Positions 14,047-58,992 of a stretch of DNA of 64,000 bases are shown here, one piece after another (the first letter of the stretch is position 1; each line of letters starts with the position of its first letter). Source of the DNA: Flavobacteriales bacterium (GTDB lineage: Bacteria > Bacteroidota > Bacteroidia > Flavobacteriales_D > Sanyastnellaceae); contig JAQWTJ010000038.1 in assembly GCA_029242765.1 (NCBI GenBank), forward strand, positions 1-64,000. The letters run 5' to 3'. The notes beneath the pieces are model-generated. The model had not been told where the DNA came from and did not search any database. It saw only the letters and a list, made by a program, of their open reading frames with translations. Both the position numbers and the translations under genes were made by a program.

Positions 14047-14067
14047 GATTTCAGTTCTCACGAGGGG

Positions 14068-15240: not shown

Positions 15241-15244
15241 GGCG

Positions 15245-15252
15245 CAAATATA
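15245..15252 (-). promoter_or_regulatory. -7 promoter box of hmgA
   Basis: On the minus strand TATATTTG matches TAnnTTTG exactly and is followed by C, as at several other genes here. It ends four bases before the hmgA ATG, so hmgA is probably transcribed on its own rather than only from the LytTR gene upstream. Confidence 0.5.
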
Positions 15253-15278
15253 GCCGCCGAGCGACTTGTTCCCCTGAT

Positions 15279-15650
15279 TCAAGCCGACCCCATAAGGCAG
15301 GCCATCACCTCAGGCTTGCGGCGCGTGGCCACGGGTACGCGCGCCCCGTCGCTCAGCACGACAATGCCGGCCCCAATTTTTCGCATCTCCCGGACAAAAG
15401 CCAAGTTCACCAGATGCTTCTGGTGGGTCCGCAAGAACCCGAACGCTCTCAGCTCCCGCTCAAAGGTCATCAAGCTTCGTGTCGCCAGCACGCTCTCACC
15501 GCCCACAAGATGCAGCAACGAATACGAGCCCTCCGACGCGACCCGCACGATTTCGCGGATCGGCAATAAGCGGACCCGATCCACCCCATTGATCGCTATC
15601 CGACCCTGAATATGTCCACATGCACACGCGCTCACACTCGGATGACGCAC
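15279..15650 (-). CDS. stand-alone LytTR DNA-binding protein
   Basis: 123 residues that are almost only a LytTR domain. The pattern is IVRVASEGSYSLLHL, a serine/leucine-rich helix, FLRTHQKHLVNLAFV, and a final DGARVPVATRR strand. LytTR domains bind direct DNA repeats and usually carry a receiver domain in front; none is encoded here. The start is uncertain: GTG at 15650 is the longest option, and there is no ATG. It lies 38 bp upstream of hmgA on the same strand, so a role in controlling tyrosine degradation is possible but unproven. Confidence 0.75.
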   Translation of the reverse strand: MRHPSVSACACGHIQGRIAINGVDRVRLLPIREIVRVASEGSYSLLHLVGGESVLATRSLMTFERELRAFGFLRTHQKHLVNLAFVREMRKIGAGIVVLSDGARVPVATRRKPEVMACLMGSA

Positions 15651-28272: not shown

Positions 28273-28305
28273 GGCCTTAATTTGCGAACTGTGAAATGTA
28301 AAACA

Positions 28306-29277
28306 ATGCGAGCGATTCTCTCACTGTCAGTGCGCGCCACTTTAGGCCTTGCTGTCTTGGCGTTTACGATTGGAATGTCATCCTGCCTGAATGACGACAA
28401 CAAGATTCCACCCAATTGTTTCGACGGTATTCTCAACAACGGTGAGGATTTGATCGATTGTGGCGGTCCGATATGTGCACCCTGCGACCCCTGCGAAAAT
28501 GGCGTTTGGGACCCTTTGCTCGGCGAGCAATGGGTGGATTGTGGCGGTGAATGCGCCCCCTGTGACTTGGCGTTCAACGGCCAAATGGATCCAGGCGAAA
28601 CGGGCATTGATTGCGGCGGAACGACCGGCATTGCCTGCGGAGAACTTTGCGGAGACGGTTTGCTTAACGGCAATGAGATCGACGTGGATTGCGGTGGACT
28701 CGACTGCGATGCGTGCCCCACTTGTACGGACGACGAGATGAATGGCGATGAGATTGGCATCGATTGCGGCGGCCCTGATTGCGCGCCGTGTCCGACCACG
28801 GGCGACTGCACCAACGGCCTGCTCGACGGCGATGAACTCTACATTGACTGCGGCGGCAGCACTTGCCCCGATTGCGAGGGCATAATAACGTGGAAGGCAA
28901 CCGGCACGGATTATGCGGCTGATTTTTCGACCAGCTGCACATTGGCGGGCGGAACACTCACCATCAACGGGGTGTCGATCACCACGGATGAGCTGTCCAT
29001 AGCTCTAGAAGAGCCAGACCTTGTGGGCTGGCAAGATGGTGTGAGCATCACGTGCAATACGAATTCAGCCCCAGGCAGTGTGGCGACTTACGCCTCGGCC
29101 AGCGGAGGCAACTTCTCGACCAATGTCGCAGGGGCCAACTTCACCGTCGATATCACGTACATCCTAGCGGAATCTGGGGGCATCGTGGTTGGCACATTCT
29201 CGGGCAGTTTGCTTGGCGTGGGCGGATCGGGCGGCATCACGCTATCGCAAGGCACGTTCATCTTACCGATCGATTAA
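28306..29277 (+). CDS. lipoprotein with six NGxxxxxxDCGG cysteine repeats
   Basis: 323 residues from the ATG at 28306; the ORF-track start is 51 bases earlier and lacks a signal sequence. The signal peptide ends GMSSC, with Cys27 as the probable lipidation site. Residues 36 to about 190 contain six cysteine-rich repeats of the form CxNGxxxxxExxxDCGGxxCxxC, known from Bacteroidota surface proteins and probably disulfide- or metal-stabilised. The C-terminal 130 residues are a Ser/Thr/Gly-rich beta-sandwich-like domain. Function unknown; probably exposed on the outer membrane. Convergent with the OmpA-like gene across a C9 tract. Confidence 0.85.
   Translation: MRAILSLSVRATLGLAVLAFTIGMSSCLNDDNKIPPNCFDGILNNGEDLIDCGGPICAPCDPCENGVWDPLLGEQWVDCGGECAPCDLAFNGQMDPGETGIDCGGTTGIACGELCGDGLLNGNEIDVDCGGLDCDACPTCTDDEMNGDEIGIDCGGPDCAPCPTTGDCTNGLLDGDELYIDCGGSTCPDCEGIITWKATGTDYAADFSTSCTLAGGTLTINGVSITTDELSIALEEPDLVGWQDGVSITCNTNSAPGSVATYASASGGNFSTNVAGANFTVDITYILAESGGIVVGTFSGSLLGVGGSGGITLSQGTFILPID
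28417..28881 (+). repeat. coding repeats of the DCGG module (six copies)
   Basis: The DCGG core recurs six times (LIDCGGPIC, WVDCGGEC, GIDCGGTTG, DVDCGGLDC, GIDCGGPDC, YIDCGGSTC) at intervals of about 24-32 residues. Nearly every unit also has an NG turn before it. Confidence 0.85.
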
Positions 29278-31906: not shown

Positions 31907-33058
31907 TTATTCGCCTCCTCCCAACAGCTGCTCCACGGCAGCTTCCAGCGCGACGATGCGCACGAGCAAACTGTCGTTGGCTGTCCACAGGCTGTCGTTG
32001 CTAACGCTCAAGGCGTCGATCGCGTTTAGCACGACCACTCCGCCGGCGGTCACCCCGCCCGAGACTTCAAGTGACCCATCGTCATGGACGACCAATGCAT
32101 TGCTCACATCGTCGATCCCGACCCCATTGCCTACCACAAAAAGTGAGCCAGAGGTAAGGGGGACATTGTACTTGCCCACCACCGTTTGGTAGGGGACGTC
32201 AGCTACGGTGTAGTATCCTGCAGCGCTAGATGCGTAGGCGGTGGCGTCGGTTTGATAGCCCTCAGCGTGCGAGGCAAATCCGCTCGCTACGGTGGTGTGG
32301 CCTTCAGAGTGGGAGGCGTCGGCTGTGGCTGAAGTGCCCTCGCCTTCGGCGTGTGAACAGGTGGCTGATGACAAGGTGTTGCGGCCTTCACTGTGCGAGA
32401 AGTAGCCTATGGCTTCCGTGTTGTAACCCTCGGCGTGTGCCGAACTTTGTGTGGCGCTTGTGGCGTACCCTTCGGCGTGGCTGTAGTTGCCTTCGGCCTT
32501 GGACCCGTAACCCTCAGCGTGTGCTGTGGTGGCCGTTGCGTCGGTGAACATGCCCTCGGCGTGTGAGGCTGTGCCCGAGGCTTCGGTGTTTTCGCCTGAG
32601 GATGACGAACAGGTGCCCGAGGCGATCGTGCCTCTGTTTTGCGCGTGCGAGTAGGCGCCGCCAGCTTCCGTCCCGCTTCCCGAGGCGTGTCCATAAGATC
32701 CCAATGCAACAGAACCTGCTCCTTGGGCGAATTCACCTGACACCCGCATATCGCCTTCAACCCACGTAGCCGTGTAGACGTTGATGCCCAAGGTGTACGT
32801 TGAATCTTGGATGGCCGACAATCCCAAGTTGATGCGGGCTGAGTCGGCGTCGGCCGCACCGGTGCCGCCGTTTTCAATTTCGATTACGCCGGTTACCTGG
32901 TAGTAGCTGCCGTAAACGCCAAGCATTTCTAAGATGTCGGTTGACCCGATGAGTTCATTGCCGTCCGCGTCCGGATTCCAAGGGAATTGGCCTGAGGCAG
33001 AGGGACAGATAAAGAGTACGAGCAAAGCGAGCACGACGGGAGTGCGGAGTGATTTCAT
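31907..33058 (-). CDS. secreted protein with dockerin-like motif and twelve YadA-head-like repeats
   Basis: 383 residues from the ATG at 33058 (MKSLRTPVVLALLVLFICPSASG is a signal peptide). Directly after the signal comes a calcium-loop, dockerin-like motif (DADGNELIGSTDILEMLGVYG). Residues 121-288 are twelve repeats of exactly 14 residues with the consensus xxSHAEGxxTxAxx, the pattern of the YadA/Hep-Hag head and some phage tail fibres. The C-terminus is a short coiled coil (LLVRIVALEAAVEQLL). No membrane anchor and no T9SS sorting domain is present. It may form a trimeric beta-roll. Function unknown; adjacent to the giant surface protein on the same strand. Confidence 0.82.
   Translation of the reverse strand: MKSLRTPVVLALLVLFICPSASGQFPWNPDADGNELIGSTDILEMLGVYGSYYQVTGVIEIENGGTGAADADSARINLGLSAIQDSTYTLGINVYTATWVEGDMRVSGEFAQGAGSVALGSYGHASGSGTEAGGAYSHAQNRGTIASGTCSSSSGENTEASGTASHAEGMFTDATATTAHAEGYGSKAEGNYSHAEGYATSATQSSAHAEGYNTEAIGYFSHSEGRNTLSSATCSHAEGEGTSATADASHSEGHTTVASGFASHAEGYQTDATAYASSAAGYYTVADVPYQTVVGKYNVPLTSGSLFVVGNGVGIDDVSNALVVHDDGSLEVSGGVTAGGVVVLNAIDALSVSNDSLWTANDSLLVRIVALEAAVEQLLGGGE
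32195..32698 (-). repeat. twelve 42-bp coding repeats (YadA-head type)
   Basis: Twelve contiguous units of exactly 14 codons were counted by hand, from SYGHASGSGTEAGG to YASSAAGYYTVADV. SHAEG or a variant falls at the same place in nearly every unit, while the flanking residues vary. Confidence 0.9.
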
Positions 33059-33116
33059 GGTGAAGTGAAAGGTACAACGGGATGGATAAAGGGTTTGCTC
33101 TGTGCGGTTTAGTATA

Positions 33117-33390
33117 TTATTTCTGTATGACAAGTCTTTTTGTGATTTGATGCCCAGCGCCGCTGACGCGAACTTGATAAACGCCCGAAGGCAAGTCCTC
33201 GACCCAGATGTCGAGCAAATAGGTGTGGCCGGGTTCGGCCGACCCGCTGTACAGAGCTTCTGTACTGCGTCCGTCCATGCCTATCAGGTCGATGTTGACG
33301 CGCATGAGACGGTCGACTTCGAATCCGATGCGCGTGGTGCTGGATGCGGGGTTCGGGCTGAGTGAGGCCATGCGCACGGGCACGGTTTGC
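33117..33390 (-). other. T9SS type A C-terminal sorting domain of the giant protein
   Basis: The last 80-90 residues have the standard form: SLSPNPASSTTRIGFEV, then VNIDLIGMDGR, LPSGVYQVRVSG and a basic end KRLVIQK. In known systems this signal directs passage through the T9SS translocon and is removed on export. Confidence 0.88.
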
Positions 33391-36300
33391 CCGTCGGAAA
33401 GTTCGGAATTGTCAGCCGTTGAGAAGCCAGCGTCGGGCTCCACGGGCGCTACACCTGCGTCCTCGCAGTCGCCGCCGTTGACTTCCACGCTGTGTTCAAA
33501 CGCAGCCACATTGCCAGAGCAATCTGTTGCCGTGTGCGTGTAACTCACTGTGTAGGGGAGCGCGCAATCCAACTCACCGAACAAGTCACCGCTGCCGTTG
33601 ATCGGCTCACCGTCAAATGTGCCCTCGTAGAAGAACCATCCGCTGTAGCCGTAGGCGTCGTTCATATTGTTGGCAGCAACGCCCACTTGGAATCCATAGA
33701 ATAAGTTGGCCGGTTGATGGCTAAGCGTCATCTCACTACCGGCATATTCGCCCCATCCGCTCAGCGTTCCGCTGCTCAAAATCCAGTACATCCAGTCTTC
33801 ATGTAAATCGGGTAAATCCTCGCAGTCTTGCTTGAAGTCCGTCTCGAAAGGCTGGGTGTCCCAAGCATTCCAATCCATTCCGCCGGTGAGTAAGACCTCG
33901 ATATCGAAGCCCGCTGCCGGGTTTTCTAGGCTGGCCACAGTTTGCGTAATCGTCCATGATCCGTCGGCCATTTGGCTGACTATGCCTTCGCCCACGCTCA
34001 CATAAAATTCATCGCCGGCGAAGTTGAACATCCGCATGTCGTGCGGGTCGTAGCCGGTGCAGGTCATGCCGCCTTCCCACGCTTCGGGCGTTGCAGTAGC
34101 GCAGAATTGGGTGACGCTGTCGTTCGGGGCAAATCCACCTTCAAAGCTTGCACTCCAGGCCAATTCCACCTCGCCTCCGCAACCGTCTTCAGCTGCCGTT
34201 TCACAGAACCCAGGGAACTCAGGGGTCTCTCCCGTATAGTCTTCGCCACAGTAGGTTGTCAACGCGCCATCAGCCAGATCACAGGTCGACGTCCACGCAG
34301 GCGCTGTCGTGTCGTTGACCGTGATGGTGACGGTTTGCACTGCGGAGTTGCCACAGCCGTCCGTCGCCGAGAAGCCATACGCCACGACGCTATTGCCACA
34401 ACCGTCTGATGACAAGGTGTCGATCCAGGCCGCCAGCACAGGCTCGGCATCGCATCCGTCTGTGGCCGTGGCCACAAGCTGTGGCACATCAGCCGCACAG
34501 ACCACGCTCATATCTCCGAAATTCAGGCTCAACTCAGGCGCCGTTATATCCTCCACGCTCAGCACTTGTGTCCAGTCGCTTGTGTTTCCGGCGCAGTCGC
34601 TCGCTTGCCAAACACGCGTCACCGTCCAGCTCTGCGGGCAATCGCCCTCGGAACTCGTCTCGCCTACAAATTCAATCGTTACCGCCCCGCTGCAATTGTC
34701 TGTTGCTTCCAAAGCCTCCAAACCAGCGGGTTCGGGCACCTCGTCGCAAGCCACCACCGCATCGGCGGGTCCGCTTATAAACTGAGGCGCAACTTCGTCC
34801 GTCACCTCGATCAATTGCACATGCGTCACCGCATTGGCCGAACAATCTTCAGCCGTCCAAACACGCGTGATTGTGAACTCGCTTGGGCAATCTCCAAGGC
34901 CGCTGGTGTCGGCAGAAAAGCTCACAGCCACCGCTCCGGAACACGCATCGGAAGCAGTCAACACCTCCACCACAGGCACCGCGTCACAGCTTACCGTTAA
35001 GTCCTCGGGCAAGCCCTCCACAAAGGCGGGTCCCACCGTATCCACCACGTTAATCGTTTGGGAGGCGCTGGCTGTATTGCCACAATTATCTTCAGCCGTC
35101 CACGTCCGCACCACGGTCATCACACCATCGCAGGATCCCGGCTCTACAGCGTCGGTGTACTCGACCTCAACATTGCCATCGCACAGGTCTTCAGCCGCAG
35201 CCTCCCCCGTGAATTCTGGCGCAACATCATCTCCGCACTGCAATGTCAAATCGGTCGGAACTTCTGTAAATACTGGAGCAGTCGTGTCAATCAATGTGAT
35301 GTTCTGTATCATCTCAGTGCTGTTTCCACAACCGTCGGTGGCGGTGTACGTCACCAAGTAAGAGGCCACGCACGAACCGCTGAACGGCATCAGGTCGTCC
35401 ATCACAATATCCACTTCTCCACCGCAGGGGTCGTAGGCCGTCACGTACACGGCACTTTCGTCCCACAATTCGCATGACAATTCTATTTCCATGGCGCCCT
35501 CAAATACAGGGGCACTGTCGTCAATTACATTCACGACTTGCTCGTGCTGCACGGCATTGCCGGCGCAGTCGATAGCACTCCAAGAGCGCGTAATTACCTC
35601 CGTGTCGCCGCAGTCTCCTGGGGTGGACCATTGGTAGAATACAATTTCTGCAGTGGGGTCGCAGAGCTCGAAGATGGCCATTTCGGCCGGTTCGGGGATG
35701 GACAAGCAGCTCACCGTTGTATCGGCTGGCAGGGCCGTAGTGAACACCGGCGCCACCGTGTCGATCACCGTCACAACTTGCGCGTGCGAAATCCCATTTC
35801 CACATGCATCGCTCACCATCCAGCTGCGCAACAGCGTGTACTCGCCGGCGCACTCGCCGCCTATGGTCTCTTCATCAAAGAGCACTTCAATGTCCGCATC
35901 GCAGCCGTCCACAGCCTCTAAAATGTCAGCTGCAGGCACGCTGCCGCAAGCCACGGTAGTATCTGCAGGCAGCGTCTCGATTTCAACCGTCCAAACGGGG
36001 GCAATCGTGTCGCTTACACTGACCAGTTGTGCGCAGGAGATGCTTGTAAAATTGTCACACATATCCATTGCCGTGGCAGTGAACGTCCGGATGAAGCTGT
36101 AGCTACCGGCGCAGTCAGCACTGACCAATTCGTCGTAATAGCTGTAGCTTGTTTCAAGGTCCTCGTCGCAGTTGTCGCTATAAATCACCAGCGCCTCACC
36201 AAGGGTTGCCACGGTAGTATCTGCAAAACAATTCGCATCGGCATAGAGCGCCAAATCGTCGGGGCAGACCAGCGTAATTATAGGTGCCACCGTGTCGATT

Positions 36301-39300
36301 ACGTTGATGATTTGTGTGTAGTGGCTTGAATTACCGCAGTTGTCATAGGCGTCGTACTCACGCAACCATGTGCCAGCGCACGAGGCGCTCACAGGGTAGG
36401 CTGCGGTGATGACAATCTGCACATTGCTATCGCAGCCGTCGCTTGCGGTCAAGGCGTAGACACTGTCCGGGCTGAAAATGTCGCAGGCCACAAAGGTGTT
36501 GAACTCGCCTTCAAAGACGGGCGCCGTGATGTCTAGAGCGGTGATGGTCTGCACGCAGCTGACCGTGTCACCGAGGTTGCCACAGCCGTCCACCGACGTG
36601 GCGTAGAAGGTGCGTTCGAAGGTGAAGCTGCCCTGGTCGCCGCCGTCCTCGCCCTCACAGAGCATGGTCGAATCACTGTCTTGGTACCACCATGAAGTGC
36701 CCGTTGCTGGGTCGCAGGCATCCAATGCGCTCACAGCCGGCGAGCCGAGGGCGTCGTAGCTCAAGTCGGCGCTGCAATTTGCGTCGAGTGAAACCGTCGT
36801 GTCCGGTGGGCAAACCACTGAAGTCACAGGCCCTGTTATATCGATTACCGTGATGGTCATATCACAGCTGGTCGTGTCAGTGTTTCCGCAATGGTCTGTG
36901 GCCACCGCTGTAAACGTGCGCACCAAGGTGTACTCGCCAATGCATCCAGGCAACGGCAATCCGTCTTCGAATGTGATTTCAATCGCCGGCTCATCGACCC
37001 CGCAATTGTCCGTAGCTGAGACTTCGGCCCAACCCAGAAGGTCCACACTGAGGTCGGTCATGCAGTCGGCATCGACCACCAGCACCGTGTCGGCAAGGCA
37101 TTCGATGGACACCACAGGGGGCGTCTCGTCATAGAGTTCAAGGTATTGTTCGAAAGACCCTGCGTTTCCACAGTCATCAGTGAAAGTGTACTCGCGCAAT
37201 ACGAGTCCAAAGGGCTGCACGCATCCGCCAGAAAACGGCGTATCCGTCCAAATCAAGTCCACTTCACCACCGCAGCCGTCCTCGACGGAAATCAAAGCGG
37301 GTGCGCTGTTGTCGCTTGTGTATTCCTCGCAAGCCAGGGTATACGGAGTCACCCCGTCAACAACATACGGTGCGTTGAGGTCCACGACGGTCACGGTCTG
37401 TTGCACGGGCAAGGTGTTGCCGCAGTCGTCCACAAAGGTGTAGGTTCGGTCGACTTTGAAGCTGCCCGCACACTCTACGGCGTAGACGCTGTCCTCGACC
37501 CAGCTGAAGGCCACGTCCGAGTCGGTGTTGTCCGAGGCGGTCCATTCCGTGTACGCCGTGCTAGGATCGTATACTTCGCAGGTCACCACCGAGTCGGTCA
37601 AGGTCGCCACAGGGGCCACCGTATCTAACAGGTTCACCAGCTGATCGCACGAGCTGCTGTTGCCACATTCGTCCGTTACGGTGAAGGTCCGCGTGAAGGT
37701 CAAAGTGCCTTCGGGTGTAAGGTCGTCTCCATCGCAGGCCACCACAAAGTCGCTGTCGATATGGTCGATGACCAAGGCTTCGAGTCCGGCACAATTATCA
37801 CTCACCTCCGGCATACCCAAGGCCACCGTTGTTGTGTCATCGTTGGGGTTCTCGTCGAGATAAATTTCAATGTCGGCCGGGCATTCAATGCCAGGGGCCG
37901 TCGTGTCGATTAGCACCACTTCTTGGTCGAAGGTTGCGCTGTTTCCGCAGTCGTCAGTGATGGTCCAGCTGCGCATCCATGTGCCGGGGCATGACCCTGT
38001 GCCCTCGACGGCTACCGCAGAAACGCTGACCGCCACGTCGTCGTCGCAGCTGTCACCGAAATCCAATGCAACCAAGCTTGGATCCGTCGGATCGTAGAGC
38101 AGTTCACAAGAAACCGTCACCGAGCTGTCTGCATCGATGAACACCGGTGCCGTTTGGTCGAGCACTTCGACGGTCTGCACACATGTAATGGTATCGCCCA
38201 CGTTGCCACAGTCGTCCATAGCATACGCGTAAAACGTCCGCTCAAAAGTGTAGCTTCCTTGGGTCTGGGCGTCGTCCCCGGTGCACGAATATGCAGCCGG
38301 TCCGTCGATGTGGAAAAGGGACACGTCCGGCGCGCTGTCGCAGCCGTCTTCGGCCGCTCCTGAAGCGTCGCCTAATGCGTCCAGGCTCAAGTTCACCTCG
38401 CAAGCAGCATCGAGCACCACGGTCGTGTCAACCGGGCAGTCGATGGACACCATCTCGGGGGCTGTCACGTCCAAGACTGTGATGAGCACGGAGCAGGTTT
38501 CAGTCGCTGTATTGCCGCAGTGATCAAGCGATGAGGCCGTCCAAGTGCGCGTCACTTCAAAGGATCCCTCCCCGGTTTCACAAAGCCAATTGGGTTCAGA
38601 ATCCACCACATCCACCTCCAGAGAGGGGGCCGCGTCGCAATTGTCGCTCACGCTGACTTGCACAGGCGCCAGCGCGGATTCACTCCAGTCCGCCTCGCAA
38701 AATGCATCGAGAAGTACGGTCGTATCGGGTGGGCACACCAACGAAATCTCAGGTGAAACACTATCGATCAGTGCTATGAATTGGCTCTCGAGCGCGGTGT
38801 TGCCACAGGCGTCCACCACGGTGTACACCACGTTGAAAGTGGGAGCGGGCGTTACGCAGCCACCGGACATGCCGTAGCACGTGGCGTAGGCCGTGTCAAT
38901 CACGCAGTTGTCGGCGTAAGTCAGGATGCCGTACTCGACGAGTTGGTCGATATCGCAGACCCATTGGTCGCAGGCTAGTTCGGCTTCCACATCGCTCAAA
39001 CCAATACTAGGGGCGATGATGTCCTGTACATACAAATACTGTGTTCCGCTGGCTTCGCTGACGTTGCCGCACGAGTCGGAGACAGTCACGGTCCAAACGC
39101 GTTCGGTGGTGAAGCATCCGCTGGAGACGCTGTCCACAGTGAAATCTTCGTAGACCAATTCAGTCCCATTCAGCACGCAATTGTCGCTTGCCTCAAATGT
39201 GGCATATCCCGTCATATCGGGGTCATTGAACACACCGCACAACGCGTTGACATTCAACGTCACGTCGCCTGGAATTTCGATGCTCACCTGGGGGGCAATA

Positions 39301-42300
39301 CTGTCGACAATTTGCAGCGTCTGCGTGCAGTAGGCGATATTGCCAAAGAGGTCTTCTGCCTGCCACCGGCGCTCAAGTGTGTAACAGCTCGTGGCGTCGA
39401 ATGCGACTTCGAACTCGCCCAAATATGAAATTTCCGGGCTCCCGGCATCGTCGCAATTGTCCTGGGCTTCGACCCAGCCCAACACGGGCAAGTCCTCCCC
39501 GCAAGCCAGTACAGTATCGCTGGGGCATGCCGTGAAGACGGGTGCCGTCGTGTCGAGGCGGCAAACTTGTTGCTCGTAGGTGTAGACGCCACAGCTGTCG
39601 CCAAAGACCGTGTAAATATTTGTCAGACAAGCCTCAGGCCCTTCGTTGGGCACGTCAGTCAACGTCACGTCGGCAATTACATCGCCCATCGAGCCCATCA
39701 CAGGCGTCCCGCCAATTTGTCCGCTCCAGTTGAACCAGCCGCCTATGCCCGTGTTGCAGTTGTGGTCATTGGCACTTTCACCCACTTGGAAACCGAAGTA
39801 CTGGGAAACAGGAGCGTGGCCCACGTGCAGCAAGCTGCCTTCGTATTCGCCAAGGCCGTGCAGATAGCTTTGGTCGCCCTGCAAGATGTAAATCGTCCAA
39901 TCCTCGAACGGGATAGAGTCGCAAGCGAAAAGGTGCTTGTATCCGCGCCCCAGATCGCCCCAGGTTCCGCCGTCCATACCGTCTTCAAAGACGTAGAACA
40001 CTTGCCAGCGCTGGTTGGGGTTGAGTTCGTTGGCGATTTCGCCTTCGAGCACGGCCGTTCCGTTGTCGTATTGTGTGAAGCTCAGCCCATCACCCACCTC
40101 CAAGAAGAAGTCTGATGCGGCAAAGCCCAGCATGGCCAATCCGTAGATTCGGATCACTGCATCAGGGCCATTGCCCATGGCCGTGGTGGCCGTTCCAATG
40201 GTGTAGCCCTCGAGATTGGGCGCAGAGTAGCAACCCCAATCTAGGGTGTCTTCCGTGCAGTTGTTCACCACGGTGATGTCGTCGCAGCCCAGCCCCTCAA
40301 AGTCCTCCAAGCATTCGAGCGTATAGTCCTCGATGCCCGGTGTGATCACCAAGCATTCCGGATCGCAAGGGTCGAGCCCCAGCGTATTGCCATTGCAGTC
40401 GAAGCCCGCCTCAGCGTACTCACAGCTGCCGTCGTCATCGCTCGCCTCATCGTTGTAGTTGCAAGCCTCAGTGTCGGTGCAACCTTCAATTTCATCGCCG
40501 TCGCATACCCCGTCGCCATCGGCGTCTTCCAAGCACGCGCCGTCGCAGTCGTATCCGGCCTCAGCGTACGTGCATTCGCCGCTGTCAATGGATGCTTCCA
40601 CATTAAAGTTGCAGGCCAATTCATCCATGCACCCAGCACAACTTGTGTACTCACAGCTCGCGTCGTCGTCGGTCGCCGCCTCATCAAAGTTGCACGCTGC
40701 GGTGTCGGTGCAACCTTCAATTTCATCGCCGTCGCATACCCCGTCGCCATCGGCATCATTTAAGCACGCGCCGTCGCAGTCGTATCCAGCTTCAGCGTAT
40801 GTGCATTCACCGTTGTCAATGGATGCTTCCATATTAAAGTTGCAGGCCAATTCATCCATGCACCCTTCACAACTTGCGTACTCACAGCTCGCGTCGTCGT
40901 CGGTTGCTGATTCATCAAAGTTGCACGCCGCGCTGTCAGTGCAGCCCAAGATTTCATCTTCGTCGCATACCCCATCGGCATCGGCATCATTTAAGCACGC
41001 GCCGTCGCAGTCGTATCCGACCTCGGCGTATTGGCATCCGCCGCCATCGATTGTTGCTTCAAGGTCGAAGTTGCATGCGCCGGGATCTATACAACCTGCA
41101 CAGCTTTCATATTCGCATGAGCCGTCATCCAAGGCGGCCTCGCTGTCGTAGTTGCAGGCCAGTGCGTCCATGCACCCAGCGCAGCTGGTAAATTCGCAGT
41201 CGCCGCTGTCCAAAGTCGCCGTCTCGTCAAAATTGCACGCCAGCGCATCCATACAACCGGCACAGCTTTCAAAGTCACACGTCCCGTCGTTATCCGTCGC
41301 CGTTGCGTTGTAGTTGCAAGCCTCGATTTCCGTGCAGCCTTCAATCTCGTCTTCGTCGCAAATTCCGTCTCCATCAGCGTCTTCCAAACACGCACCGTCG
41401 CAATCATAACCGACGTCCGCATAGGTGCAGTCTTCGTTGTCCAGGTTGGCAGTATTGTCGAAATTACAGGCGGATTCATCCATGCACCCCCACAGAGGAT
41501 TGCACAGGGCGTCGAAGGCCAATGGCGTCTCATAGCTTCCCCAAGACTCGCCTTCTGAGGAAATCTGAACTTCCCATAATACAAGGCATTCATTGCACGT
41601 GGCGGGGTTGAAAATACTGAACTCCACCGTCTCGCCGGCCTCCGCATACACAGATATATTCACGTAAGCAGTGCCCTCAAACATAAAGGGCTCGGCCACT
41701 CCACGGGTCTGCCCGTCGACGCGAGCCAGCACCCAAATATCATTGGAAGTCGCCCCGTCAAAGCTCACCGTTGCGATGAAAGTCGCAGGAATGATGGGCA
41801 ACACTTCAGCTGTCAAATCCGGCTCCAAACAAGGGTCGTCTCCGTCGCAAATTCCATCCCCGTCGGCGTCCTCGAGGCAGTCGCCCTGGCAGTCGTACCC
41901 CACCTCAGCGAACGTGCAGCTTCCGTCATCTATCGTGGCAATTGCATCGAAGTTGCAGGCCTGTGTATCGGTGCAGCCCGTCAATGATCCGGCGCACAAG
42001 GCGTCGATGGCCGCCGGTTCAGCAAAGCTCCCCAGCTCGGCGCCGAGCGACCAAACGGTGGTGGTGGCTCCCGCCGCCTCGCAGTCCTCACAAGTCGCCT
42101 CGCGGAATACAGAAAAACTCACCTGGTCGCCCGTTTCGGCGTAGATAGCCAAGTTCACGAAGGCCTCACCCTCGAACTCAAATGTTTGGCCTGCTCCCCG
42201 AACCTGTCCGTCCACGCGGGCTATTACGGTGGCGTCAAAGGCCGGCTGACTATCGTAGCTCACCTGAGCGATCATTGTCGCTGGAATAATTGGCAGCACT

Positions 42301-43493
42301 TCGGCGTCGGTGCTTGGGCCCAAGCACGGGTCCACGTCGTCGCACACCCCGTCACCATCTTCGTCGGCGAAGCAATCGCCACCACAAACACCTAACACGT
42401 CTTCGCTTGCACAGGAGCCGTCGTCATCTGTGGCGCTGTTGTCGTAGTTGCAGGCTAGCACGTCGGTGCAACCTTCAATCTCGTCTTCGTCGCAAATCTC
42501 GTCTTCGTCCGCATCGTTCAAGCACACTCCGTCGCAATCGTAGCCCATCTCGGCAAACGTGCAAGTCCCGTTGTCGTCTGTGGCGCTGCCGTCGAAGTTG
42601 CAGGCCAGTACATCGGTGCAACCCGCGATTTCGTCTTCGTCGCATATGTCATCGTCATCTGCGTCATTGAAGCACACGCCGTCGCAGTCCACAGCTGTGC
42701 TTCCATACATATCCATAGGGTACTCGCAAGTGCCGTCATCTTCAGTAGCATCTAGATTGAAGTTGCACGCCTGATTGTCCGTGCAGCCTGGCGTGGATTC
42801 ATCGGGGCCGAAGAAGAAGGTGTCGCGAAATTCAGTGGTGCCCAATCCGTTGATGAACACTTGGGTGTAGAGTTGGCCGCTGATATCTCCGTCGGTCGTG
42901 AATTGACCCACCAAGATGCGGAGGGCGGCTCCTGGCACGCCGTTGGAATCGCCGTTGAGCGCGTACCATGCGCCGCCGATGGGGTCGTCGATGGCGATGC
43001 TAGCACCGGCCGTCCCGAAACCGGGGTCGAACACCGTAGCCCAAGGGTTGCCGGTGCTTTGAACTGTTGAAATGTTGGCTTCTCCAGCTGCGGCATTGGC
43101 GGGCCCCTCAAGCCCGATAGTGACATAGCTGTCGTATTGAAGATCCGGGTAAACCGGGAAGAGCAAGGGGTTTGAATTGCTGGCCGTGAGTCCTCCGATC
43201 GCGGCGTGATGGAATGCAGTGGTGGTGTAGACGTACGTCGGGTTGAGCACGTCACCTGAAATGGATGACAGGAAATCGTCTTCATTGACAAGCTCGATGT
43301 AGAGTCGGTAACAAGCGTAACCGGTGAGGTCGACCGTTCCGGTCACCCCGACCAATAGGCCAATGTCAGCTGAAACAGTGTCCACAGACAACTCATAGCC
43401 CTCAGGGGCCGTGTTGCTGTTAATGTACTGCGCACTGACCGTTGGGACGATGCACAAGAGCATCATGATCCCAGTGAGGAATAGGCGTTGCAT
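33117..43493 (-). CDS. giant modular T9SS surface protein (3458 aa)
   Basis: Start at the ATG at 43493 (MQRLFLTGIMMLLCIVPTVSAQ, signal peptide), 64 codons inside the ORF-track start. Order of parts: N-terminal beta domain (to about 235); about 237-1040 with 14 repeats of the form GCTDxxACNFDxxATxDDGSC alternating with calcium-loop segments (DADGDGVCDEDEI) and two copies of a VLPIIPAT... beta module; an aromatic-rich domain (about 1105-1280); about 21 HYR-like modules (about 1311-3081), each opening with DxxAPxF and containing DNCGN-type turns; a second copy of the aromatic-rich domain (about 3150-3310); and a T9SS type A sorting domain (LSPNPASSTTRIGF ... GVYQVRVSG ... KRLVIQK). It is probably a cell-surface fibre or adhesin exported by T9SS. 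A promoter with a 21-bp direct repeat lies upstream. Confidence 0.92.
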   Translation of the reverse strand: MQRLFLTGIMMLLCIVPTVSAQYINSNTAPEGYELSVDTVSADIGLLVGVTGTVDLTGYACYRLYIELVNEDDFLSSISGDVLNPTYVYTTTAFHHAAIGGLTASNSNPLLFPVYPDLQYDSYVTIGLEGPANAAAGEANISTVQSTGNPWATVFDPGFGTAGASIAIDDPIGGAWYALNGDSNGVPGAALRILVGQFTTDGDISGQLYTQVFINGLGTTEFRDTFFFGPDESTPGCTDNQACNFNLDATEDDGTCEYPMDMYGSTAVDCDGVCFNDADDDDICDEDEIAGCTDVLACNFDGSATDDNGTCTFAEMGYDCDGVCLNDADEDEICDEDEIEGCTDVLACNYDNSATDDDGSCASEDVLGVCGGDCFADEDGDGVCDDVDPCLGPSTDAEVLPIIPATMIAQVSYDSQPAFDATVIARVDGQVRGAGQTFEFEGEAFVNLAIYAETGDQVSFSVFREATCEDCEAAGATTTVWSLGAELGSFAEPAAIDALCAGSLTGCTDTQACNFDAIATIDDGSCTFAEVGYDCQGDCLEDADGDGICDGDDPCLEPDLTAEVLPIIPATFIATVSFDGATSNDIWVLARVDGQTRGVAEPFMFEGTAYVNISVYAEAGETVEFSIFNPATCNECLVLWEVQISSEGESWGSYETPLAFDALCNPLWGCMDESACNFDNTANLDNEDCTYADVGYDCDGACLEDADGDGICDEDEIEGCTEIEACNYNATATDNDGTCDFESCAGCMDALACNFDETATLDSGDCEFTSCAGCMDALACNYDSEAALDDGSCEYESCAGCIDPGACNFDLEATIDGGGCQYAEVGYDCDGACLNDADADGVCDEDEILGCTDSAACNFDESATDDDASCEYASCEGCMDELACNFNMEASIDNGECTYAEAGYDCDGACLNDADGDGVCDGDEIEGCTDTAACNFDEAATDDDASCEYTSCAGCMDELACNFNVEASIDSGECTYAEAGYDCDGACLEDADGDGVCDGDEIEGCTDTEACNYNDEASDDDGSCEYAEAGFDCNGNTLGLDPCDPECLVITPGIEDYTLECLEDFEGLGCDDITVVNNCTEDTLDWGCYSAPNLEGYTIGTATTAMGNGPDAVIRIYGLAMLGFAASDFFLEVGDGLSFTQYDNGTAVLEGEIANELNPNQRWQVFYVFEDGMDGGTWGDLGRGYKHLFACDSIPFEDWTIYILQGDQSYLHGLGEYEGSLLHVGHAPVSQYFGFQVGESANDHNCNTGIGGWFNWSGQIGGTPVMGSMGDVIADVTLTDVPNEGPEACLTNIYTVFGDSCGVYTYEQQVCRLDTTAPVFTACPSDTVLACGEDLPVLGWVEAQDNCDDAGSPEISYLGEFEVAFDATSCYTLERRWQAEDLFGNIAYCTQTLQIVDSIAPQVSIEIPGDVTLNVNALCGVFNDPDMTGYATFEASDNCVLNGTELVYEDFTVDSVSSGCFTTERVWTVTVSDSCGNVSEASGTQYLYVQDIIAPSIGLSDVEAELACDQWVCDIDQLVEYGILTYADNCVIDTAYATCYGMSGGCVTPAPTFNVVYTVVDACGNTALESQFIALIDSVSPEISLVCPPDTTVLLDAFCEADWSESALAPVQVSVSDNCDAAPSLEVDVVDSEPNWLCETGEGSFEVTRTWTASSLDHCGNTATETCSVLITVLDVTAPEMVSIDCPVDTTVVLDAACEVNLSLDALGDASGAAEDGCDSAPDVSLFHIDGPAAYSCTGDDAQTQGSYTFERTFYAYAMDDCGNVGDTITCVQTVEVLDQTAPVFIDADSSVTVSCELLYDPTDPSLVALDFGDSCDDDVAVSVSAVAVEGTGSCPGTWMRSWTITDDCGNSATFDQEVVLIDTTAPGIECPADIEIYLDENPNDDTTTVALGMPEVSDNCAGLEALVIDHIDSDFVVACDGDDLTPEGTLTFTRTFTVTDECGNSSSCDQLVNLLDTVAPVATLTDSVVTCEVYDPSTAYTEWTASDNTDSDVAFSWVEDSVYAVECAGSFKVDRTYTFVDDCGNTLPVQQTVTVVDLNAPYVVDGVTPYTLACEEYTSDNSAPALISVEDGCGGEVDLIWTDTPFSGGCVQPFGLVLREYTFTDDCGNAGSFEQYLELYDETPPVVSIECLADTVLVVDADCMTDLSVDLLGWAEVSATDNCGVDEPAIEITFEDGLPLPGCIGEYTLVRTFTAVATDHCGNTDTTSCDMTITVIDITGPVTSVVCPPDTTVSLDANCSADLSYDALGSPAVSALDACDPATGTSWWYQDSDSTMLCEGEDGGDQGSFTFERTFYATSVDGCGNLGDTVSCVQTITALDITAPVFEGEFNTFVACDIFSPDSVYALTASDGCDSNVQIVITAAYPVSASCAGTWLREYDAYDNCGNSSHYTQIINVIDTVAPIITLVCPDDLALYADANCFADTTVATLGEALVIYSDNCDEDLETSYSYYDELVSADCAGSYSFIRTFTATAMDMCDNFTSISCAQLVSVSDTIAPVWTVEIETLPADTTVACGSVPAADILEAVDGCDADIEVLFDEETIGGECAGEYTLLRSWMVSDACGNGISHAQVVTVIDTVAPVFTTALPADTTVSCLSIPEPAEMAIFELCDPTAEIVFYQWSTPGDCGDTEVITRSWSAIDCAGNAVQHEQVVNVIDDSAPVFEGAMEIELSCELWDESAVYVTAYDPCGGEVDIVMDDLMPFSGSCVASYLVTYTATDGCGNSTEMIQNITLIDTTAPVFTEVPTDLTLQCGDDVAPEFTGEAAAEDLCDGNVEVEYTDAVEPGSCDGVMTVVRTWTAEDNCGNTASASQTINVVDTVGPAFVEGLPEDLTVSCDAVPVVEVLTASDACSGAVAVSFSADTSGLGDCPSEFTITRVWTAEDCSANAVTHVQLIEVTDEVAPQFISGPADAVVACDEVPEPAGLEALEATDNCSGAVTIEFVGETSSEGDCPQSWTVTRVWQASDCAGNTSDWTQVLSVEDITAPELSLNFGDMSVVCAADVPQLVATATDGCDAEPVLAAWIDTLSSDGCGNSVVAYGFSATDGCGNSAVQTVTITVNDTTAPAWTSTCDLADGALTTYCGEDYTGETPEFPGFCETAAEDGCGGEVELAWSASFEGGFAPNDSVTQFCATATPEAWEGGMTCTGYDPHDMRMFNFAGDEFYVSVGEGIVSQMADGSWTITQTVASLENPAAGFDIEVLLTGGMDWNAWDTQPFETDFKQDCEDLPDLHEDWMYWILSSGTLSGWGEYAGSEMTLSHQPANLFYGFQVGVAANNMNDAYGYSGWFFYEGTFDGEPINGSGDLFGELDCALPYTVSYTHTATDCSGNVAAFEHSVEVNGGDCEDAGVAPVEPDAGFSTADNSELSDGQTVPVRMASLSPNPASSTTRIGFEVDRLMRVNIDLIGMDGRSTEALYSGSAEPGHTYLLDIWVEDLPSGVYQVRVSGAGHQITKRLVIQK
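33565..34045 (-). repeat. C-terminal copy of a duplicated aromatic-rich domain
   Basis: This copy reads GDEFYVSVGEGI ... DWMYWILSSGTLSGWGEYAG ... LFYGFQVGVAANNMND ... GWFFYEG. It matches, in order, the copy encoded at 39.66-40.18 kb. I do not recognise the domain. Confidence 0.7.
34245..39560 (-). repeat. about 21 HYR/Ig-like coding repeats
   Basis: I counted 21 module starts of the type D(T/S/I)(V/T)APxF followed by a strand ending in a cysteine. Each is about 75-95 residues and holds the turn DxCGNxxxxxQxxxVxD. HYR modules belong to the Ig-like superfamily and usually mediate adhesion. Confidence 0.85.
39655..40175 (-). repeat. N-terminal copy of the duplicated aromatic-rich domain
   Basis: This copy reads SDFFLEVGDGLSF ... 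EDWTIYILQGD ... LHGLGEYEGSLLHVGHAP ... YFGFQVGESANDHN ... GWFNWSG. It parallels the copy at 33.57-34.05 kb and lies between the calcium-loop region and the HYR array. Confidence 0.7.
40385..42792 (-). repeat. 14 CTDxxACNF calcium/cysteine coding repeats
   Basis: Fourteen units of C(T/M/I)DxxACN(F/Y)xxxAxxDDGxC were counted, with DADGDGxCDxDEI loops between most of them, as in thrombospondin type 3 repeats. Aspartate loops suggest calcium binding; paired cysteines suggest disulfides. Confidence 0.85.
40471..40932 (-). repeat. tandem duplication, two 231-bp units
   Basis: Units 40471-40701 and 40702-40932 are in frame (77 codons). I count 18 mismatches in 231 positions, about 92% identity. A third, more diverged partial unit follows. 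This is the most recently duplicated part of the giant gene. Confidence 0.88.
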
Positions 43494-43541
43494 TGCAGTG
43501 ATATAGGTGGGCTCAGGTGAGATATGCATGGATAAGCTCTG

Positions 43542-43572
43542 CAAAGATGGTGAATAATGCTCGATAAAACAA
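43542..43572 (-). promoter_or_regulatory. promoter of the giant surface protein gene
   Basis: On the minus strand, TTG (43572-43570) is followed after 20 bases by CATCTTTG (43549-43542), a one-mismatch match to the Bacteroidota -33/-7 pattern TTG-N(19-21)-TAnnTTTG. The predicted start lies about 40 bases before the ATG. Confidence 0.5.
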
Positions 43573-43586
43573 GCATAATGCTCGAT
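43554..43586. promoter_or_regulatory. direct repeat (two 12-bp copies, 21-bp period) flanking the -33 box
   Basis: ATAATGCTCGAT occurs at 43554-43565 and again at 43575-43586, identical in all 12 bases. The period of 21 bp equals two helical turns, placing both copies on one face of the DNA. The -33 TTG lies between them. This is the geometry of a dimeric regulator site (LytTR or OmpR-type proteins use such repeats). Confidence 0.55.
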
Positions 43587-43724
43587 GAAGGTGTCATTGG
43601 CGTCGACGAACGAGCTAAACCGCACAATGCATCCCCGCGCAATGCCGCTTAGAATGCGGGACGCGCAGCTTGAGCCCCAGTTCAAGGACTTTTCAAAAAA
43701 CTTACAGAAAAGCTATCGCGGCGA

Positions 43725-55156: not shown

Positions 55157-55921
55157 ATGCAAAGGTATACCTTAGCTAACGTGACATCGTTGCTGTTTCA
55201 TATCGGACGCTATTTCGCCTTTTTAGTGGCGGCGTTCCGCCGCCCGCGCAAGGTGCGCGTGTTCGGCCGAGCATTGGCTGCTGAACTGGAGATGATTGGC
55301 CTGCAAAGCTTGGGCATTGTGGTGTTGCTCTCCCTGTTTATGGGCGCGGTAATTGCCATCCAAACAGCACACCAGATTGGCGGCTGGATTCCGGCTTACA
55401 CCATTGGTTTCGCCGTGCGACAAACGATGATTCTCGAGTTTGCTCCCACCATCATCCCGGTCATCCTTTCGGGAAAAGTGGGGTCGAATATTGCATCGCA
55501 AATCGGCACCATGCGTGTGAGCGAGCAAATTGACGCACTGGAAGTGATGGGCGTAGCTGCGATTTCGCATCTGGCCCTTCCAAAAATTCTGGCTGGCGTC
55601 ATCATCTTTCCGTTCTTGGTGATCATCGCTATGGTTTTAGGCATTGGAGCGGGCGCGTGGATTTCAGTGGCTGCCGACCTGAGTAGCATGTCAGACTTTC
55701 AGTACGGCATGCAGATTGATTTCGCGCAATACGATGTTATGTACGCCTTGTTTAAGACCACCGTTTTTGCCGCCATTATTACGAGTGTATCGGCTTACCA
55801 CGGGTTTTATACTTCGGGGGGCGCACTGGAAGTGGGCCGCTCTAGCACGAAGGCTGTCGTCTACAGCGTCGTCCTGATTATGATTACCAACTTGGTCATC
55901 ACCCAACTTCTGTTGACATGA
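55157..55921 (+). CDS. MlaE-family ABC transporter permease
   Basis: 254 residues of the MlaE/YrbE fold, with five or so membrane helices. The conserved segment EFAPTIIPVILSGKVGSNIASQIG is followed by MRVSEQIDALEVMGV, which is diagnostic. With the ATPase encoded next (4-bp overlap) it should move phospholipids between the membranes to maintain outer-membrane asymmetry. The start may instead be GTG 55181 (VTSLLFHIGRYF), since a palindrome and a reverse promoter cover the first codons. No MCE-domain (MlaD) gene follows. Confidence 0.9.
   Translation: MQRYTLANVTSLLFHIGRYFAFLVAAFRRPRKVRVFGRALAAELEMIGLQSLGIVVLLSLFMGAVIAIQTAHQIGGWIPAYTIGFAVRQTMILEFAPTIIPVILSGKVGSNIASQIGTMRVSEQIDALEVMGVAAISHLALPKILAGVIIFPFLVIIAMVLGIGAGAWISVAADLSSMSDFQYGMQIDFAQYDVMYALFKTTVFAAIITSVSAYHGFYTSGGALEVGRSSTKAVVYSVVLIMITNLVITQLLLT
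55160..55173. promoter_or_regulatory. -7 box of the small lipoprotein gene within a 12-bp palindrome
   Basis: On the minus strand TACCTTTG (55160-55167) is an exact TAnnTTTG box followed by C, 25 bases before the lipoprotein ATG. It is part of the perfect palindrome AAGGTATACCTT (55162-55173). The region also covers the first codons of the MlaE gene. Confidence 0.45.
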
Positions 55922-56691
55922 TCTGCGCGACCGACGTCCACAAGGCCTTTGGGGAGAAGGTGGTGCTCAACGGTGTATCCGCGGACTTCAAACCCGGTCA
56001 GGTGAATTTCATTATCGGCCGTTCAGGGTCTGGGAAATCAGTGCTCACCAAGTGTCTGGTAGGCTTGCTTGAGGTTGACCGCGGGTTGGTGACGTATTCC
56101 GGCCCCTCAGGCGATAGAGATTTTACAGCAATGCGTCCGCGCGAGCGGGAGGCGGTGCGCCATGAAATCGGGATGCTCTTTCAGGGCGGCGCATTGTTTG
56201 ACTCGATGACGGTCCGTGAAAATGTGATGTTTCCATTGACGATGTTCGCCAACTTAGACCCCGTTCAGATGGAGCGCCGCGTGCAGGAGTGTCTCCAGCG
56301 TGTCGAGCTCGGGGATTCAGGCCAATTTTTCCCCGCTGAAATCTCCGGGGGCATGCAAAAGCGCGTCGCACTGGCTCGCTCCATCGTTATGCGCCCACGC
56401 TTCTTGTTTTGCGATGAGCCCAATTCAGGCTTGGACCCCCAGACGGCTATTGTCATCGACACGCTCATTCGAGAGCTTACCCATGAATACGAGACGACCA
56501 CCGTGGTGGTGTCCCACGATATGAATAGCGTCATCGAAATCGGTGAGCACATTCACTTCGTTCACGACGGGGACATCCCTTGGACGGGCGACAGTGCGGC
56601 CATTTTGAGAGCCGAACTTCCCGCGCTCGAGGAATTCGTGTACGCCTCCGACTTGATGAAGGACGTGCGAAAAAAAATGCTCGGCTTGTGA
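55918..56691 (+). CDS. MlaF-family ABC transporter ATP-binding protein
   Basis: 257 residues. Walker A GRSGSGKS, signature ISGGMQKR (the Mla type, with M after GG), Walker B FLFCDEPNSGLDP, and the switch histidine in VVVSHDMNSV. It powers the MlaE permease encoded just upstream, overlapping it by 4 bp. The last bases of the gene (GTGA) also contain the start of the deiodinase-like gene. Confidence 0.92.
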   Translation: MICATDVHKAFGEKVVLNGVSADFKPGQVNFIIGRSGSGKSVLTKCLVGLLEVDRGLVTYSGPSGDRDFTAMRPREREAVRHEIGMLFQGGALFDSMTVRENVMFPLTMFANLDPVQMERRVQECLQRVELGDSGQFFPAEISGGMQKRVALARSIVMRPRFLFCDEPNSGLDPQTAIVIDTLIRELTHEYETTTVVVSHDMNSVIEIGEHIHFVHDGDIPWTGDSAAILRAELPALEEFVYASDLMKDVRKKMLGL

Positions 56692-57380
56692 AAGGCTTCC
56701 AACGTCACGCCCCCCACCGCTTCAGCCATAACGAAATGCGCGCTCGACTGGCGGACTTTGAGCAGTCCCTGGAAAGCCGTCGCAGCGTCCGGAACTTCAG
56801 TTCGGACCCCGTCCCCATGGACATCATCGAGTCAGCTATTCGCATCGCATCGTCGGCTCCTTCGGGCGCGCACAAGCAGCCCTGGACGTTTTGTGTGGTG
56901 ACCGACCCGGTCCTCAAGTCGGCCATCCGCAAAGCGGCCGAGGCCGAAGAGCGCATCTCTTATGGAGGCCGCATGTCGAAGCGCTGGCTTGACGACCTGA
57001 AATTTGTGGGCACCGACCACAATAAACCCTTCATTGAGGACGCGCCAGCGCTGATTATCGTGTTCAAGCGTGTCTTTGAATGGGTTGATGGGGAGGGTGC
57101 TGATCGGCAGAAAGCGCCGAACTATTACGTGCCAGAAAGCGTCGGCATCGCCACAGGCTTCTTGCTCGTGGCTTTGCAGCAGGCCGGGCTGTCCGCCTTG
57201 ACCCACACGCCCTCTCCAATGAACTTTTTGGGCGAGCTTCTTCGGCGCCCGGACAACGAGCGCGCTTTTTTGAATATCCCGGTGGGATGGCCAGCTGAAG
57301 GGGCAGAAGTGCCTATAATTCACCGTAAATCTATGGATACGGTTCTGGCCCAATACTCCGAAATTGACAATGAGAAGTGA
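56688..57380 (+). CDS. nitroreductase-superfamily protein resembling iodotyrosine deiodinase
   Basis: 230 residues from the GTG at 56688, which overlaps the stop of the MlaF gene (GTGA). FMN-binding residues typical of the superfamily: RRSVRNFS (31-38) and SAPSGAHKQPWTF. The region E88-x3-Y92, then K113 21 residues on, matches the substrate triad (Glu, Tyr, Lys) I recall for mammalian iodotyrosine deiodinase. Also conserved are RM..RW..DL, YYVPESVGIA and the THTPSP segment. It may reductively dehalogenate halotyrosines using FMN, but other nitroreductase substrates cannot be excluded. Tyrosine catabolism genes lie 41 kb away. Confidence 0.8.
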   Translation: MKGFQRHAPHRFSHNEMRARLADFEQSLESRRSVRNFSSDPVPMDIIESAIRIASSAPSGAHKQPWTFCVVTDPVLKSAIRKAAEAEERISYGGRMSKRWLDDLKFVGTDHNKPFIEDAPALIIVFKRVFEWVDGEGADRQKAPNYYVPESVGIATGFLLVALQQAGLSALTHTPSPMNFLGELLRRPDNERAFLNIPVGWPAEGAEVPIIHRKSMDTVLAQYSEIDNEK

Positions 57381-57439: not shown

Positions 57440-57466
57440 TTGTTGGCGTGGAATGCGTTTACTTTG
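57440..57466 (+). promoter_or_regulatory. promoter of acpP
   Basis: TTG at 57440-57442 is followed after 17 bases by TACTTTG, close to the Bacteroidota -33/-7 pattern, and then by C. It would start transcription about 25 bases before the acpP ATG. Confidence 0.45.
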
Positions 57467-57498
57467 CAGCGCAATTGGCAAAAAAATTGAGTAGCGCT

Positions 57499-57732
57499 AT
57501 GTCTAGTATTCGTGAAAAAGTAACAGCAATCATCGTCGACAAACTCGGCGTCGATGCATCAGAGATTAACGACGAGGCCGGCTTCACCAATGATTTGGGA
57601 GCAGATTCTCTTGACACCGTTGAGTTGATCATGGAATTCGAGAAGGAATTCAACATCGCTATTCCGGATGATCAGGCTGAGAAGATTGGCACGGTTGGAC
57701 AGGCCGTCGAGTACATCGAGGCGACCGTCTAA
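57499..57732 (+). CDS. acpP: acyl carrier protein
   Basis: 77 residues from the ATG at 57499 ([17 protein letters not shown]); the ORF track adds 38 upstream codons that include the promoter. The phosphopantetheine attachment serine is S37 in [12 protein letters not shown]. It carries growing fatty acid chains. It heads the acpP-fabF-rnc block; fabF follows after 12 bp. Confidence 0.97.
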
Positions 57733-57744
57733 TTCAGCCCTGAG

Positions 57745-58992
57745 GTGGAGCTGAAGCGGGTCGTTATCACGGGTGCCGGGTGCTTGACACCTCTGGGCAA
57801 CGATGTAGCGACATTTTTTGAGGCGCTCAAGAATGGTGAAAGTGGCGCAGGCCCGATCACACATTTTGATGCCACCCATTTCAAAACCCAGTTCGCATGT
57901 GAGCTGAAGGGGTACGACCCACTGGACCACTTCGATCGGAAGACGGCCCGGAAGCTCGATCCTTTTGCTCAGTATGCAATGGTAGCAGCCCGCCAGGCTG
58001 TGAGCCACGCTGGCCTTGACGCAGAGGGCATTGACCTGGATCGCGTGGGCGTAATTTGGGGCAGTGGCATCGGCGGGCTGTTCACCTTTCAAGAAGAGGT
58101 GCGCAACTACGCCAATGGTGACGGTACGCCTCGCTTCAACCCTTTCTTTATCCCGAAAATGATTGGAGACATTGCTGCGGGGCAAATTTCCATCGAATTC
58201 GGGTTCCGCGGTCCGAATTACGGCTGTGTTTCGGCGTGCGCAAGTGCGACGAATGCTGTCATCGATGCGTTCACAACCATCCGCATGGGCAAGGCCGATG
58301 CGATTGTAACGGGCGGATCTGAGGCGGCTTGCGTGGAGGCCGGCATCGGGGGCTTCGGTGCGATGAAGGCACTGTCCACACGCAACGATGATCCGCAAGG
58401 GGCTTCGCGTCCTTTTGACGTGACGCGCGATGGCTTTGTTTTGGGCGAAGGTTCGGGTGCCATGGTGCTCGAGTCACTTGAGCATGCTCAAGCGCGCGGA
58501 GCAAACATTTTGTGCGAGGTTATGGGTGGCGGCGCTTCGGGTGACGCGCACCATTTAACAGCACCCCACCCGGAGGGCACAGGCGCCATTCGTGTGATGC
58601 GGGCCACATTGGAAGATGCGGATATGCAGCCCGATGAAGTGGATTATATCAACGTGCACGGCACCTCGACACCACTTGGCGATTTGGCAGAAGTCAAAGC
58701 AATCGAGGAGGTCTTCGGCGACCACGCCTACAAGTTGAGCATCTCGAGCACCAAATCCATGACGGGCCATTTGCTGGGAGCGGCTGGCGCGGTGGAACTG
58801 CTCGCCTGCGTCTTGTCTTTGCAGGAGCAGATTATCCCACCGACAATCAATTCGAGCGAGCCGGACCCTGCGCTGAATCTCGAATTGGACTTCACGTTCA
58901 ACACGGCCAAAAAGCGCGAAGTGCGCGCGGCTCTCTCGAACACCTTCGGCTTTGGCGGTCACAACGCTTGTGTGATCATTCGTAAATTTTGA
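57745..58992 (+). CDS. fabF: beta-ketoacyl-ACP synthase II
   Basis: 415 residues from a GTG (MELKRVVITGAGCLTPLGND). It elongates fatty acids on ACP. The catalytic triad is visible: Cys in SACASATNA, His in NVHGTSTPLGD and His in TGHLLGAAG. It lies 12 bp after acpP and its stop codon shares one base with the rnc start. Confidence 0.97.
   Translation: MELKRVVITGAGCLTPLGNDVATFFEALKNGESGAGPITHFDATHFKTQFACELKGYDPLDHFDRKTARKLDPFAQYAMVAARQAVSHAGLDAEGIDLDRVGVIWGSGIGGLFTFQEEVRNYANGDGTPRFNPFFIPKMIGDIAAGQISIEFGFRGPNYGCVSACASATNAVIDAFTTIRMGKADAIVTGGSEAACVEAGIGGFGAMKALSTRNDDPQGASRPFDVTRDGFVLGEGSGAMVLESLEHAQARGANILCEVMGGGASGDAHHLTAPHPEGTGAIRVMRATLEDADMQPDEVDYINVHGTSTPLGDLAEVKAIEEVFGDHAYKLSISSTKSMTGHLLGAAGAVELLACVLSLQEQIIPPTINSSEPDPALNLELDFTFNTAKKREVRAALSNTFGFGGHNACVIIRKF

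Follow-up and report, generated by a model that had tools for sequence, protein, structure and literature searches.

The window, a stretch of 64,000 nucleotides from a Flavobacteriales bacterium, carries a gene of the iodotyrosine deiodinase (IYD) family directly behind genes for an mlaE-like permease and an mlaF-like ATPase, and ahead of acpP and a fabF-like gene. The features of this locus are:

55157-55921, + strand: mlaE-like lipid ABC permease (PF02405, E=9.6e-60)
55918-56691, + strand: mlaF-like ABC ATPase (PF00005, E=6.7e-30; the MlaF model NF008809 matches below its cut-off, among other ABC ATPases)
56688-56691, + strand: GTGA, the start/stop overlap between mlaF and the IYD gene
56688-57380, + strand: IYD family gene, 230 codons without interruption, GTG first (230 aa)
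56949-57026, + strand: active-site lid segment, with E88 (56949-56951), Y92 (56961-56963), RMSKRWLDDL (56970-56999, residues 95-104) and K113 (57024-57026)
57201-57218, + strand: THTPSP motif (residues 172-177), whose T174 corresponds to T173 in the Haliscomenobacter enzyme
57460-57467, + strand: TACTTTGC, a promoter-like element of the TA(C/A)TTTG type before acpP, from the comparison of family loci
57499-57732, + strand: acpP, acyl carrier protein, 73-97% identical to the gene in relatives, where most have it at the same position
57745-58992, + strand: fabF-like beta-ketoacyl-ACP synthase, a conserved neighbour that about 40 of 106 loci have as the second gene after IYD

The initial annotation of this DNA had likened the product to an iodotyrosine deiodinase from the spacing of three residues and two short motifs. 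E88, Y92 and K113 indeed stand where they were placed, with the tyrosine at +4 from the glutamate and the lysine at +21 from the tyrosine; the motif given as RM..RW..DL corresponds to RMSKRWLDDL, and THTPSP is found as described.

Kinship with iodotyrosine deiodinases

The product of 56688-57380 is, with strong support, a clear bacterial relative of thyroid iodotyrosine deiodinase, an assignment that rests on sequence, lid residues, tree position and modelled fold. A phmmer search against the PDB returned the IYD of Haliscomenobacter hydrossis as best match (5ko7, E=1.9e-74), followed by the mammalian (mouse and human) enzymes (E=6e-52 to 1e-48) and the IYD 6pz0 (E=2.5e-25). The six best distinct sequences are all IYDs, and the first nitroreductase outside the family appears only at 6e-11. 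By alignment, the window protein is 55% identical to the Haliscomenobacter enzyme, 46% to that of mouse and 44% to that of human, whereas identity to nitroreductases (E. coli NfsA, NfsB and YdjA, together with paralogues from the window genome and related genomes) ranges from 17 to 25%.

Inspection of the active site leads to the same assignment. The triad E88/Y92/K113 corresponds to E91/Y95/K116 of 5ko7 and also matches the mouse and human proteins; together with R95, M96, W100, T174 and P175 it is unvarying in 100 of 100 IYD-family rows, while the complete E-Y-K triad occurs in none of the 12 nitroreductases aligned. At the level of sequence, the comparison bears out a deiodinase-type lid. 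Residues R31, R32, R35, T174, R213 and K214, among them the arginines for the FMN phosphate and the Ser/Thr position near flavin N5, are kept as in solved IYDs, and the window protein is predicted to bind FMN. All catalytic and lid residues that could be checked are present.

General family models place the protein more broadly. Pfam assigns it to the broad nitroreductase family only, and every curated NCBIfam match lies under its cut-off and comes from another subfamily, the nearest, BluB and FbiB, being far below. These names, together with a nitroreductase paralogue encoded in the same genome, would suit a plain nitroreductase or flavin reductase whose resemblance to the deiodinase lid is superficial. 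Given the low identity to such enzymes, the E-Y-K lid found in none of their aligned rows, and a tree and fold that both place the protein among IYDs, we regard this explanation as extremely improbable.

In two phylogenetic trees the window protein lies inside the bacterial IYDs, with supports of 96/85 and 99/95 in the first and 96/87 and 100/99 in the second, and not with plain nitroreductases, the grouping that would have spoken against the initial annotation. Support is moderate for the branch that parts all IYDs from the nitroreductases (79/88 and 82/75 in the two trees), and an AU test with the window protein forced to the nitroreductase side gave a p-AU of 0.066, which is not rejected at 5%. 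Both results follow from the remoteness of the nitroreductase outgroups, which makes the root within the IYD family unsure; we read the AU result as doubt over this root and not over the kinship with IYDs.

The AlphaFold model of the protein (pLDDT 88.9) has as its closest fold 5ko8, the Haliscomenobacter IYD in complex with FMN and mono-iodotyrosine (TM 0.88/0.93, rmsd 2.0). Structural matches 1 to 25 are all IYDs, after which values fall from about 1e-17 to 1e-12, to FbiB and nitroreductases. The lid region is modelled as helices 74-94 and 98-107, and the comparison with substrate-bound 5ko8 was made at the level of the whole chain.

IYDs have been reported 'from mammals to bacteria' (review, PMC13078365). 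Bacterial IYDs are already known biochemically, and the window gene is a further member of this known kind of enzyme. It shares its lid and THTPSP motif with the Haliscomenobacter IYD (5ko7, 5ko8, 5krd), to which the identity extends across 214 residues, although the latter falls in another clade of bacterial IYDs. From mammalian IYD/DEHAL1 (4ttc, 3gfd, 3gh8), with its identical lid triad, the window protein differs in having THTPSP in place of TTTPLN and in beginning near the catalytic domain, whereas mammalian IYD carries a membrane anchor. The minimal IYD 6pz0, which we believe to come from Thermotoga neapolitana, is shorter (chain of 192 residues) and 29% identical, with a fold similarity of TM 0.72/0.89. 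BluB, the C-terminal domain of FbiB, and NfsA/NfsB have the fold family and the RRS FMN-binding start in common with the window protein, but the nitroreductase-superfamily members compared lack the E-Y-K lid.

Gene order, overlap and loss

The proposal that the gene is coupled to a lipid-transport operon came from its position. The GTG start of the IYD gene and the TGA stop of mlaF together form GTGA, and ATGA, GTGA or TTGA stands at this junction in most loci of the same genus. Since NTGA recurs at the same place in most of these relatives, the overlap is not a matter of chance. In some other members of the bacterial family the junction is a short gap, and within this family the gene order mlaE-mlaF-IYD-acpP-fabF-rnc-pyk is kept. 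Among the loci examined, the overlap with mlaF is confined to this family and is unlike the situation of the Haliscomenobacter IYD.

The end of the putative transcription unit can be approached through the region before acpP. An element of the TA(C/A)TTTG type, which we take to resemble the Bacteroidetes -7 box, lies about 29-40 nt ahead of acpP in 17 of the 19 family loci compared. This conservation points to separate transcription of acpP from a start of its own, in which case IYD would be the last gene of an mlaE-mlaF-IYD unit.

Outside the family the surroundings change. Among other Flavobacteriales and other families of the class, IYD adjoins a divergent purN, in many cases with acpP-fabF downstream and without mlaEF, and in further Bacteroidota its neighbours vary widely and are unrelated genes. 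A Pfam scan of 40 flanking proteins from outside the clade revealed no family in more than two of them. Linkage of IYD to mlaEF was accordingly not steady across lineages and was found in this family only.

Neither is the gene itself steadily kept. It is patchy in the class, with 80 of 296 genomes (about 27%) carrying it, and common in other classes too, as a phylum-wide sample with IYD in 89 of 297 genomes indicates; among 60 near relatives, 37 have an IYD match below 1e-40. Almost all carriers have a single strong copy, as for a dedicated enzyme. Three genomes are instructive at the level of the locus. In G033 mlaE-mlaF-acpP is intact and IYD is missing. In G013 (L169, G013:C10:9200-13000) a C-terminal remnant corresponding to residues 173-223 of the query is all that is left of IYD between mlaF and acpP, and in G049 (L170, G049:C3:448500-451500) the copy lying between purN and acpP is broken across reading frames. 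The decayed copies in G013 and G049, still in place, are losses of the gene. Taken together, these three loci indicate that mlaEF can do without IYD and IYD without mlaEF, and sites at which the gene is intact, decayed or absent offer concrete material for a physiological test.

The overlap stands as real and kept in the clade, while the wider claim of coupling to lipid transport does not extend beyond it, as mlaEF and IYD each occur alone. The mlaF-adjacent arrangement is clade-specific and needed by neither partner. An envelope role, in which IYD would serve as functional partner to the MlaEF transporter or to fatty-acid synthesis, could draw on the retention of the overlap throughout the genus and in much of the family, and on acpP-fabF lying downstream in many Flavobacteriales families. 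We consider it very unlikely in view of the loss or decay of IYD in the three genomes described, the unrelated neighbours in many Bacteroidota, and the promoter-like element of acpP itself. In addition, mlaD is absent beside the mlaEF pair of the window (55157-56691), and the sole MlaD-family match of the genome lies on another contig (G000:C28:5706-5945). A more specific version, in which the overlap reflects a dehalogenase made together with a lipid transporter and acting on oxidant-halogenated tyrosines or tyrosine-like groups in the envelope, appears to us highly unlikely.

Two observations on IYD loci elsewhere may be added. In some loci of the Saprospiraceae type (L046, L058, L078, L087, L104) IYD is preceded by a short-chain dehydrogenase and followed by a TANGO2-like gene, flanks that point to no obvious common pathway. 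A 606-aa IYD 'fusion' in L222 was set aside, since its upstream open frame appears to be spurious.

Proposed function and substrate

We propose a soluble, FMN-dependent bacterial IYD, acting as an accessory enzyme, as the product of the gene, which would be third in a likely mlaE-mlaF-IYD unit, and assign this reading as a whole a probability of about 0.88. IYD chemistry relies on reduced FMN and one-electron steps: the lid closes on the zwitterion of the substrate, halide is lost and tyrosine is the product. By homology, the window protein would work as a homodimer in which reduced FMN stacks on the halotyrosine, E88, Y92 and K113 hold the substrate by its zwitterionic amino-acid end and shut the site, and the side chain of T174 tunes flavin N5 for one-electron steps. 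The halogen would then depart as iodide or bromide to leave tyrosine, and judged from its sequence the protein should be capable of deiodination. In the window's bacterial family IYD would be co-transcribed as the third gene of the unit, joined to mlaF by the 4-base overlap, with acpP probably served by its own promoter.

In bacteria, the physiological substrate may be something other than iodotyrosine. An enzyme with IYD fold and lid could act mainly on another bacterial substrate and accept iodotyrosine as merely one of several; candidates are nitrotyrosine, tyrosines brominated or chlorinated through the action of oxidants, or a different phenolic amino acid. This alternative, which is compatible with membership in the IYD family, seems to us a serious one, at somewhat less than even odds. 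It agrees with the known ability of IYDs to debrominate, with the patchy occurrence in the class, which fits an optional clean-up role, and with the loci examined, where no gene for iodine metabolism or tyrosine catabolism recurs beside bacterial IYDs. Against it stand the invariant zwitterion lid and the crystallization of the nearest characterised enzyme with mono-iodotyrosine; from these two we infer that an ortho-halogenated amino acid is still the best guess for the natural substrate.

A link to tyrosine catabolism had been suggested by two genes that lie outside the IYD locus:

12910-14061, - strand: hpd, 4-hydroxyphenylpyruvate dioxygenase (TIGR01263 above cut-off, E=2.7e-135)
14068-15282, - strand: hmgA-like gene, homogentisate dioxygenase (TIGR01015 below cut-off, E=1.5e-17; PF20510 HgmA_N)

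Both genes are in the same genome, as the initial annotation had stated, and even on the same contig, about 42 kb from IYD, with hmgA sub-threshold for TIGR01015 and recognized through HgmA_N. The further argument, that tyrosine released by the enzyme feeds into this pathway, proved weak. A gene for hpd was found in 59 of 60 relatives, with IYD present or absent, and neither hpd nor hmgA occurred in any of 160 IYD loci (flanks of about 1.5-5 kb). At class level, hpd is present in 79 of 80 genomes with IYD and 184 of 216 without, an association (Fisher p=3e-4) that is confounded by phylogeny and probably also by aerobic lifestyle. Since the two genes share these backgrounds, the association tells us no more than that the tyrosine would be usable by most carriers. 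With hpd present in almost every relative and never next to IYD in these loci, tyrosine catabolism was dropped as evidence.

For the deiodinase proposed here, one copy per genome in nearly all carriers, an invariant lid, repeated loss and the lack of a stable neighbour argue for a self-contained step of salvage or detoxification in bacterial IYDs rather than for a pathway enzyme. The window IYD would play an accessory part in salvage or clean-up; the gene has been lost several times, and its neighbours would indicate where it sits and not a common pathway.

Apart from the IYD locus, the window contains three open frames rich in repeats. The frame at 28255-29277 (+ strand) encodes 340 aa with repeated NGDExxxDCGGxxCxxC-type units and has no Pfam match. 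A Pfam match is also lacking for the 408-aa product of 31907-33133 (- strand), whose many S-H-A-E-G type repeats are like the head repeats of trimeric adhesins. The third, at 33117-43685 (- strand), is a frame of 3522 aa in which GCxDxxACN(Y/F) units recur alongside numerous cysteine-rich repeats, the product of which is probably secreted.
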